Origin: Magnetococcales bacterium
GTDB taxonomy: Bacteria; Pseudomonadota; Magnetococcia; Magnetococcales; Magnetaquicoccaceae
DNA length: 37,569 nt
Assembly: GCA_015231775.1 (NCBI GenBank)
Contig: JADGAY010000018.1
Location: 1 to 37,569, forward strand
Reading direction: 5' to 3'
In this document: positions 6,071-15,849 of the stretch, one piece after another
How positions within the stretch are numbered: the first letter of the stretch is position 1
Layout: every line of letters begins with the position of its first letter
Notes under the pieces: model-generated
Told to the model about the DNA's origin: nothing
Database searches by the model: none
Seen by the model: the letters and a program-made list of their open reading frames with translations, nothing else
Translations under genes and position numbers: made by a program

Positions 6071-6691
6071 ATGGCACCACTCGGAATGGATGGGAATCGG
6101 GATGACGACGCTTTCCAGCCGCGCTGGGAGCTGTTGGGCGACCATCCCCGCCCCTTGGGGGATATCACCCTGGATCTGAACCACCTGCTGCATCGCGCCC
6201 AACCCTGGAAAGCTTGCGGCGTGCTCGGACCGGCGGATCTCACCGAACTGGCCGAGACCGCTCCCCTGGAGGGACAGGCCGAGCTGCTGCTCGAGGCCAG
6301 ATCGGTGCGTCAGGAAGGACGGTTGGTCGCGCGGGTACGGGGGATTTGTCGCGCCACGCTGCGCTTGACCTGCGTGCGCTGTCTGGTTGATTTTTGTGCG
6401 CCGATCGAAGCCGACATCGATGCCGCCTTCGCGGTCGGGAGCGATCCGGCGGCCAAGAACAAGAGTTGGCGCTTCGAGGAGGATGTCGAATATCTGCCGG
6501 ATGGGACGCTCAAGCTCCGCCATCTGGTTGAACAGGAGTTGTTGCTTACCCTGCCCATGAACCCGATCTGCCTCTCCGGGTGTGCTGGACTGTGCGCGGG
6601 GTGTGGGGCGGATCTGAATCGCGCCCCGTGTACCTGCCGTGAAATCGAGCCGCAAGGCCCGTTCGCGGCATTGAAATCGTTGCGGTCTTGA
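6071..6691 (+). CDS. yceD: YceD family (DUF177) protein
   Basis: A 206-residue DUF177 protein. Homologues are conserved next to rpmF and are implicated in 23S rRNA accumulation. Visible features are the central CVRC pair in RLTCVRCLVDF (about residue 100) and a C-terminal Cys-rich patch CLSGCAGLCAGCG, which together probably bind a metal. The C-terminus has the usual CLSGCAGLCAGCGADLN form. The stop TGA at 6689-6691 lies exactly at the left edge of repeat copy D, so the usual yceD-rpmF adjacency is interrupted by about 220 bases, most of it the element. Confidence 0.85.
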   Translation: MAPLGMDGNRDDDAFQPRWELLGDHPRPLGDITLDLNHLLHRAQPWKACGVLGPADLTELAETAPLEGQAELLLEARSVRQEGRLVARVRGICRATLRLTCVRCLVDFCAPIEADIDAAFAVGSDPAAKNKSWRFEEDVEYLPDGTLKLRHLVEQELLLTLPMNPICLSGCAGLCAGCGADLNRAPCTCREIEPQGPFAALKSLRS

Positions 6692-6833
6692 TGCGTATTT
6701 GGGAATTCCACCCCTGGAATCCCCAAATACGCACGGTTCGAACACCTTCGAACCGTGCTTGAACAAATTGCCTGGCAATTTGGCGGGCCCTCCATGGCCC
6801 GCATCGGTGGTTTGGCCATTGCCAAACCGCCTC
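6692..6833 (+). repeat. Five-hairpin repeat, divergent copy D
   Basis: A 142-base relative of the 141-bp element, between yceD and rpmF. Hairpins are at 6693-6732 (18-bp arms, one mismatch), 6731-6758 (12-bp perfect arms, four-base loop), 6764-6782, 6783-6802 and 6806-6831. The third and fourth hairpins keep the sequence of copies A-C, while hairpins 1, 2 and 5 differ in sequence but keep pairing. The trinucleotide TGA flanks both ends (6689-6691, 6834-6836); the left one is the yceD stop codon. The left end lacks the GAGGC terminus, while the right CCTC end is kept. It could act as an attenuator or processing site ahead of rpmF. Confidence 0.85.
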
Positions 6834-6914
6834 TGAATGCTTGTCCCCTTGGGATCTGGGGAGACGAGAGTCGCGTGAACACGTTGGTTTGATCTTATAG
6901 CAAGGAGAACACCC

Positions 6915-7094
6915 ATGGCCGTACCAAAAAAGAAAGTTTCCTCCGCGCGTGGCGGCATGCGTCGCGCCCACAATGCCCTGACCGCCCCGGCATTGTCCCT
7001 CTGCCCCAACTGCCAGGAGCCGCGTCCGCCCCACAAGGTGTGTCCGCACTGCGGTTGGTACAAAGGGCGCGAGGTCGTGACGGTCAAGGAGTAA
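6915..7094 (+). CDS. rpmF: Ribosomal protein bL32
   Basis: A 59-residue large-subunit protein bL32. The N-terminus MAVPKKKVSSARGGMRRAHN is the family signature, and a zinc ribbon is formed by Cys30, Cys33, Cys43 and Cys46 (CPNC and CPHC). It is the four-cysteine, zinc-binding form. AAGGAG lies ten bases before the ATG. It is preceded by repeat copy D rather than directly by yceD and followed after 36 bases by plsX, so the yceD-rpmF-plsX-fabH order is kept around the insertion. Confidence 0.97.
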   Translation: MAVPKKKVSSARGGMRRAHNALTAPALSLCPNCQEPRPPHKVCPHCGWYKGREVVTVKE

Positions 7095-9217: not shown

Positions 9218-10068
9218 CCAAGCCAACCTCGGAAATCATCTTCCTCAGCCACTGTCCGGACCGTGTGGGTCTGGATGCGCGCATCACCGGTTTCTTTGCC
9301 GACGAGCTTTTCAACATCCTCGACCTCTCCCAACACTCGGAACGGGGCCGCTTCTTCATCCGCATCGAGGGGAGCGAGGAGGGGAGTCCCCAGTCCATCC
9401 AAACCTGGACCGAAAAGTTCTTTCCCATCGCCCGCGAACTGGACATGTCCTATTCGTTCCACGACCCGCTGGAGCGGTTGCGGGTGGTAATGTTCTGCTC
9501 CAAGACCCTGCCCTGTCCGTTGGAGGTGCTCTCCCGCTGGTTGAGCGGTGAAATGCGCATCGACCTGCGCGCGGTGGTGAGCAACCATCTGGCGATCGAA
9601 CCGATCATCCGCAAACTGGATCTGCCCTTCTATCACACCCCGACCAGCGGAGACGCGACGCAGTTCGAGCCGATGCAGATGCGCATCATCGAGCAGCACA
9701 GCCCGGATCTGATCGTGTTGGCCCGTTACATGAAGATCCTCTCACCCCGTTTCCTGGACCAGGTGCGCACGCCGATCATCAACATCCACCACTCCTTCCT
9801 CCCCTCGTTCATCGGCAACGACCCGTATGAGCAGGCCTATCGGCGCGGGGTGAAGTTGATCGGTGCCACGGCCCATTTCGTGACCAGTGAACTGGATGAA
9901 GGACCGATCATCCATCAGGATGTGGTGCGTATCGGTCATCAATTCTCGGTATCCGACATGAAGCAGGTGGGTGCGGACATCGAAAAGCAGGTACTCGCCT
10001 CGGCGTTGCGCAAGTTCACGGAGCGCAAGATCATTCAGTGGCAGGGACGGACGGTGGTGTTTCACTAA
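9214..10068 (+). CDS. purU: Formyltetrahydrofolate deformylase PurU
   Basis: A 284-residue PurU, which hydrolyses 10-formyltetrahydrofolate to formate and tetrahydrofolate. An ACT domain fills residues 1-85 (FLSHCPDRVGLDARITGFF). The formyl-transferase catalytic domain follows, with HHSFLPSF, the folate-site loop around GNDPYEQA, and the active-site region TAHFVTSELDEGPIIHQD. ATG 9214 is chosen because it starts the ACT fold and overlaps the upstream 15-codon ORF as ATGA; an in-frame TTG at 9187 would add nine residues but has no ribosome site. The TAA stop is also the left flanking trinucleotide of repeat copy B. Confidence 0.93.
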   Translation: MTKPTSEIIFLSHCPDRVGLDARITGFFADELFNILDLSQHSERGRFFIRIEGSEEGSPQSIQTWTEKFFPIARELDMSYSFHDPLERLRVVMFCSKTLPCPLEVLSRWLSGEMRIDLRAVVSNHLAIEPIIRKLDLPFYHTPTSGDATQFEPMQMRIIEQHSPDLIVLARYMKILSPRFLDQVRTPIINIHHSFLPSFIGNDPYEQAYRRGVKLIGATAHFVTSELDEGPIIHQDVVRIGHQFSVSDMKQVGADIEKQVLASALRKFTERKIIQWQGRTVVFH

Positions 10069-10209
10069 GAGGCTGTTTGGCAAATGCCAAACAGCCGACG
10101 AGGGCCATTCTTGGCACGCCAAATTGCGCAGCAATTTGAGAAGCACGAATCGATTTTTTCGATTCGTGCTGGTTTGGTGATTCCATTCATGGAATCACCA
10201 AACCGCCTC
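10069..10209 (-). repeat. Five-hairpin repeat, copy B (inverted)
   Basis: A 141-bp copy of the element in the opposite orientation to A, C and D. The ends are GAGGCTGTTTGG on the left and, on the right, CCAAACCGCCTC with one substitution. TAA flanks both sides (10066-10068 and 10210-10212), and the left TAA is the purU stop codon. All five hairpins are recognisable; the GGGCC hairpin has two unpaired changes (GAGGGCC...GGCACGCC). It lies between purU and the panE-type gene, where its stems could end or stabilise the purU transcript. Confidence 0.9.
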
Positions 10210-10246
10210 TAAGTAAGCGAGACCGACCATTCACGCTGGAGAGCCC

Positions 10247-15637: not shown

Positions 15638-15698
15638 GAGCGTATGATGAATCGTATTCCGATAGGGTGTTGTGGGAACTCTGGATGAGAAAATATTA

Positions 15699-15839
15699 GA
15701 GGCTGTTTGGTGATTCCATGCATGGAATCACCAAACCAGCACGAATCGAAAAAATCGATTCGTGCTTCTCAAATTGCTGCGCAATTTGGCGGGCCAAGAA
15801 TGGCCCGCGTCGGCTGTTTGGCATTTGCCAAACAGCCTC
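15699..15839 (+). repeat. Five-hairpin repeat, best-preserved copy C
   Basis: The most intact 141-bp copy. Terminal inverted repeats of 12 bp (15699-15710 and 15828-15839) match exactly, and TTA flanks both sides (15696-15698, 15840-15842). Hairpins: 15705-15736 (perfect 16-bp arms, no loop), 15738-15766 (12-bp arms, AAAAA loop), 15770-15788 (8-bp arms, TGC loop), 15789-15808 (8-bp arms, AGAA loop) and 15812-15837 (12-bp arms, TT loop). It lies between the coiled-coil gene and glnS, both transcribed on the minus strand, and so probably within or near the glnS leader. Confidence 0.93.
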
Positions 15840-15849
15840 TTAATGAATC

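Follow-up and report, generated by a model that had tools for sequence, protein, structure and literature searches.

Several groups of short, dispersed, palindromic repeats that are predicted to fold have been described in bacteria, among them ERIC, bcr1, NEMIS/Correia and YPAL, and they consist mostly of single or double stem-loops (PMC2267715); some structured intergenic repeats affect mRNA (PMC10969869). A second group is formed by the REP/BIME elements of RAYT transposases, in which the REPs measure 20–40 bp (PMC3733652). Small non-autonomous elements (MITEs) also accompany the IS5 family, in which the elements of the IS1031 group generate TNA target duplications (PMC12016507).

The element analysed here, copy D, is found in a window of 37,569 nucleotides (the whole stretch of DNA under analysis) from a Magnetococcales bacterium, and belongs to a family that shares traits with each of these systems. 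Like ERIC, bcr1, NEMIS/Correia and YPAL, the family is short, dispersed, palindromic and predicted to fold, but it carries five tandem hairpins, which covary across bacterial families, and has no match in Rfam. With the REP/BIME elements it has in common palindromic sequence, intergenic location and high copy number, whereas, when the features of the elements are compared, it differs from them in having DDE-type terminal inverted repeats and target duplications. The likeness to the IS1031-like MITEs of the IS5 family extends to the GAG... ends, the 3-bp TNA duplications, the absence of an ORF and the existence of an IS5 element sharing the end; unlike in those MITEs, the interior is made of five covarying hairpins, and in the relatives from other bacterial families the ends differ and the duplications are of 4 bp (NTAN). 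Covariation is usually taken as proof of a functional RNA and is here strong in a mobile DNA repeat, of which the dozens of copies per genome are natural replicates, so that two explanations, selection for the fold and template copying from arm to arm, can be set against each other in a test. The family appears to be undescribed in Rfam and is widespread, and it keeps its five-hairpin core while the transposon ends are exchanged. In the reading preferred here, to which we give a probability of roughly 60%, D represents a defunct five-hairpin MITE of ~141 bp, the stems of which are kept paired by a process acting at the DNA level.

A mobile element in the stop codon of yceD

Copy D, without its TGA flanks, coincides exactly with the interval listed in Table 1 and fills the gap between yceD and an rpmF-like ORF. 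The same site is empty in eight congeners (G001–G006, G009 and G010) and holds two tandem copies in a further congener, G007 (the MAG nHA4bin8, a Magnetococcales bacterium, and the sole genome matched by the exact core pattern in a genome-wide search). The TGA/TGA flanks and the eight empty sites together identify D as a MITE-like insertion. In the genome to which the window belongs, at least 65 copies (about 65) were found at E ≤ 1e-10, and 29 in G007; the true copy numbers are higher, since many copies sit at contig ends. The element is 141–150 bp long, has neither a transposase gene nor an ORF, and is intergenic in 31 of the 32 copies with flanking gene calls. Its terminal inverted repeats are GAGGCTGTTTGG...CCAAACAGCCTC, and the middle base of the TNA duplication is the same on the two sides in 19 of the 21 copies that have TNA at both (7.4 expected; 0 of 10,000 shuffles).

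Table 1. Position of copy D, its parts and its neighbours, and of further copies of the element.
Feature	Position	Strand	Basis or remark
yceD (Pfam YceD), upstream gene	6071..6691	+
Left 3-bp target duplication TGA (yceD stop codon)	6689..6691	+	sequence; TNA duplications of the family
Copy D, five-hairpin mobile element, subfamily B	6692..6833	+	R1, 128.4 bits; R2 (built without D), 56.8 bits
Hairpin 1 of D	6692..6733	+	19-nt arms 6692-6710/6715-6733
Hairpin 2 of D	6731..6758	+	GCACGGTTCGAA/TTCGAACCGTGC
Hairpin 3 of D	6764..6782	+	CAAATTGC/GCAATTTG
Hairpin 4 of D	6783..6802	+	GCGGGCC/GGCCCGC
Hairpin 5 of D	6806..6831	+	right terminal repeat = 3' arm + TC
Right 3-bp target duplication TGA	6834..6836	+	sequence
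rpmF-like small ribosomal protein ORF, downstream	6915..7094	+	sequence and synteny with relatives
Full copy at contig end	7..147	+	flanked by TTA/TTA
Full copy (including flanking TTA)	10063..10212	-
Copy C, reference for the comparison with D	about 15699..15839 (also given as 15696-15842)	+	flanked by TTA/TTA

In the congener G008, a complete IS5-family element of 913 bp (L096) has the family's 18-nt end and TGA duplications, and encodes an IS5-family transposase of 267 aa (NF033580, 239 bits). Several traits by which a MITE is recognized are found, namely short length without a transposase gene, terminal inverted repeats, target duplications and an autonomous element sharing the ends, and on these sequence features the family is placed among the putative non-autonomous IS5-type elements. 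An IS5-family transposase would have moved D, with the TGA stop codon of yceD as landing site. Two search results count against the preferred reading: in the window's own genome no intact IS5 transposase of this family was found, and a search by end pattern for a partner IS in G030 and G032, two genomes with relatives of the element, yielded nothing but the small elements in pairs.

The predicted RNA fold of D has an energy of –83.8 kcal/mol (z = –10.3 against dinucleotide shuffles), and D folds equally well on the opposite strand, or as DNA. In hairpin 1 a copy complementary to the right arm stands in place of the left transposon end: TGCGTATTTGG, the left arm, matches the complement of CCAAATACGCA exactly, and the match extends over 3 nt of hairpin 2. 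Such a left arm, which copies the complement of its partner and overwrites the transposon end, resembles the product of a template switch. The left terminal repeat is lost, and D, with its left end destroyed, is probably immobile.

Whichever base stands in its middle, a TNA target gives a stop codon on one of the two strands (TAA, TGA, or TTA/TCA reversed), and about seven copies lie exactly in the stop codons of genes, where the duplication restores the stop and makes the landing site a harmless one. Tandem or overlapping double copies are seen at G007 C7:3330-3618 (L069, L119), G000 C4:15745-16001 and G000 C300:1846-2143; in the C4 double copy, the last hairpin (5) of one element and the first (1) of the following element form a fusion.

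Paired changes and covariation in the stems

D and copy C differ at 14 stem positions, ten of which form five pairs that restore Watson-Crick pairing. Four of these exchanges, with both arms changed in each, had been reported in the initial annotation and are present: T-A to G-C in hairpin 1 (6703/6722), A-T to G-C (6736/6753) and A-T to T-A (6737/6752) in hairpin 2, and T-A to G-C in hairpin 5 (6809/6828). The fifth, which it did not list, is a G-C to A-T exchange in hairpin 1 (6697/6728) and adjoins a new 5-bp extension of that hairpin (6692-6696 with 6729-6733). Hairpin 1 also carries one A-C mismatch (6704/6721), and hairpin 5 one T-G wobble (6808/6829). Hairpins 3 and 4, described as keeping their sequence, do so in the stems, with the exception of the closing pair of hairpin 4, and differ in the loops. 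Against the five compensated pairs observed, the null mean is 0.55 and five or more occurred in 0 of 20,000 randomisations; when hairpin 2 is left out, three compensated pairs stand against 0.59 expected (p = 0.007).

The excess is not confined to this pair of copies. Among 74 copies of the window's family, 253 both-side changes (counted as cells) were found, against 82 ± 9 after shuffling and 45–72 with slid partners; across Magnetococcales the count is 401 cells against 122 ± 10, and for genomes from outside Magnetococcales it is 165 cells against 45 ± 5, in covariance-model alignments that are fitted to the structure and hence lean towards it. In a tree-aware test, the null of which came from an R-scape-like script of our own applied to a poorly resolved tree, the top five of 9,730 column pairs in the window's family are all structure pairs. 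Among the 53 structure pairs, five have E < 0.05, of which four belong to hairpin 2 and the fifth to hairpin 5, and one pair is significant among all column pairs; the pairs of hairpin 1 rank high, none of them being individually significant. Across families, the column pairs found significant in the tree-aware tests lie in the structure in 12 of 12 and 13 of 13 cases and cover all five hairpins. The covarying pairs anticipated in stems 1, 2 and 5 are thus found within the window's own family for hairpins 2 and 5, and not for hairpin 1, and for all five hairpins across families. Significant covariation beyond phylogeny, one of the traits by which a structured RNA family is recognized, is present both within the window's family and across families.

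Recombination or gene conversion between copies, by exchanging hairpin modules, would spread a few ancestral variants and so mimic compensations. Overlapping or tandem copies in C4, in C300 and at the D locus of G007 are in line with such exchange, as are hairpin 2 variants common to many copies (about 30 of the 74 have the same letters as D in hairpin 2); isolated exchanges, however, recur at one and the same pair in unrelated copies (pair 118/137, U-A to G-C, on several branches), and this explanation is improbable.

RNA or DNA as the level of stem maintenance

According to the initial annotation, paired changes imply selection for a folded RNA or a single-stranded DNA. Template switching between hairpin arms during replication yields the same paired changes (PMC8794818), and these alone therefore do not imply selection on RNA. 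The paired changes on which that statement was based are upheld and selection on DNA hairpins may act; that a folded RNA is under selection has no firm basis here, the signs expected of it being weak or absent.

If the five hairpins were a structured RNA, the stems would be kept paired by selection acting on each copy's transcript (for mRNA processing, stability or protein binding). This would fit the conserved loops and linkers and the covariation of stems in many families, and D, lying within the yceD–rpmF unit, would be transcribed. A slight excess of G-U over A-C in the window's family (139:103 events, p = 0.024), seen in pairs derived from G-C (98:55) and not in those derived from A-T (41:48), likewise hints at selection on a single strand and tells against the preferred reading. 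Across the phylum, however, G-U equals A-C (64:67 cells); G-U far outnumbers A-C in ordinary RNA helices. The orientation of the copies to genes shows no bias (8 along, 13 against), and the ratio of G-U to A-C does not differ with it (10:9 along, 14:15 against, both small numbers). A scan of D for terminators and promoters found nothing, and no hairpin is followed by the T run of an intrinsic terminator. In single copies, that is on terminal branches, stem changes are mostly one-sided (399, against 71 paired), and selection on transcripts is, on the whole, unlikely. Paired and one-sided changes do not differ in their mutation spectrum, and transitions that might proceed by way of G-U are not in excess; these equal spectra, the near balance of G-U and A-C, the lack of orientation bias and the rewritten hairpin 1 of D point to DNA rather than RNA.

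Mutation could in principle act on DNA by itself, template switching in near-palindromes copying one arm onto the other with no selection for folding. The mechanism is a known one, the common spectrum of paired and single changes agrees with it, and so does the replacement of the terminal repeat in hairpin 1 of D. It leaves unexplained, however, the conservation of loops and of the number, order and spacing of hairpins over unrelated stems, as well as the slower change of stems than of unpaired sites (0.020 vs 0.053 per site on internal branches, and 0.089 vs 0.133 changes per site on terminal ones, branch counts being approximate because the trees, built on about 150 columns, have poor resolution). 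Moreover, in 62 of the 75 branch-helix cases one pair has changed in isolation and not a tract, and mutation as the sole cause is distinctly unlikely. The preferred reading, that of a DNA-level process, would combine arm-to-arm template copying, by which mismatched hairpins may be restored in replication, with selection on the hairpin form of mobile lineages, single insertions mostly decaying afterwards. Selection on the form is suggested by the apical loops of hairpins 1 and 4 (ATCC[AC]T) and the linkers, which are conserved while the stem letters change; since changes in single insertions are mostly one-sided, such selection, if any, would act mainly on lineages that are still moving. Where the copies are unpaired, A:T to C:G transversions outnumber every other change (106 of 495), which is unusual for bacteria and resembles a mutT-like spectrum.

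Relatives of the element in Pseudomonadota

With the model R1, 28 copies of a 152-bp relative were found in G030, a genome from another family of the order, and with R2, built from the G030 copies, further copies in G030, G032 and G034, plus D. As R2 was built solely from a different bacterial family, its match to D (E = 5.8e-17, model E-values being rough) is not circular. D as a chance run of unrelated hairpins, the alternative that the initial annotation had allowed for, is refuted by this match; nothing was found in favour of such a run, which is scarcely conceivable.

A third model, R3, built from all these copies, matched 47 of 399 genomes drawn across Pseudomonadota (up to 7 candidates scored per genome), from nine taxonomic families, four of them in Magnetococcales and five elsewhere in the phylum. 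The relatives keep the five hairpins, their spacing, the ATCC[AC]T loops and an ACAAA linker, with stem letters that are nearly all different and terminal repeats that differ too. The surmise that two subfamilies with different stem sequences may exist was correct and too modest, the same fold being found with different stems in nine families. The target duplications of the relatives are of 4 bp (NTAN) and occur in 12 of 45 cases in G030 (1.3 expected), 7 of 15 in G032 (1.0 expected) and 14 of 37 elsewhere (4.4 expected). No match was found in the plasmids, phages and viral contigs searched, and no real match in Rfam, either at the gathering threshold for the window and 18 relative loci or in an E-value scan around D.

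A wider reading would be that of an undescribed, phylum-wide mobile family defined by its fold, with the order, spacing and apical loops of the five hairpins fixed, in which stems, terminal repeats and target length change, any available IS5-type transposase is used and the folded core, as DNA or RNA, is selected; we regard it as possible, if somewhat doubtful.

On the reverse strand, the ATCC[AC]T loop reads GGA (A-N-GGA for ATCCAT), which, judged by its letters, could correspond to the core of CsrA/RsmA sites; subfamily A of the window lacks the loop. In G003, the family's 18-nt end is present in at least 31 exact copies, which bound different elements of 237–310 bp, without the five hairpins. 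Elements of 45–66 bp consisting of just two facing ends are present in G009, G030 and G032, and hairpins 1 and 5 may descend from such elements.
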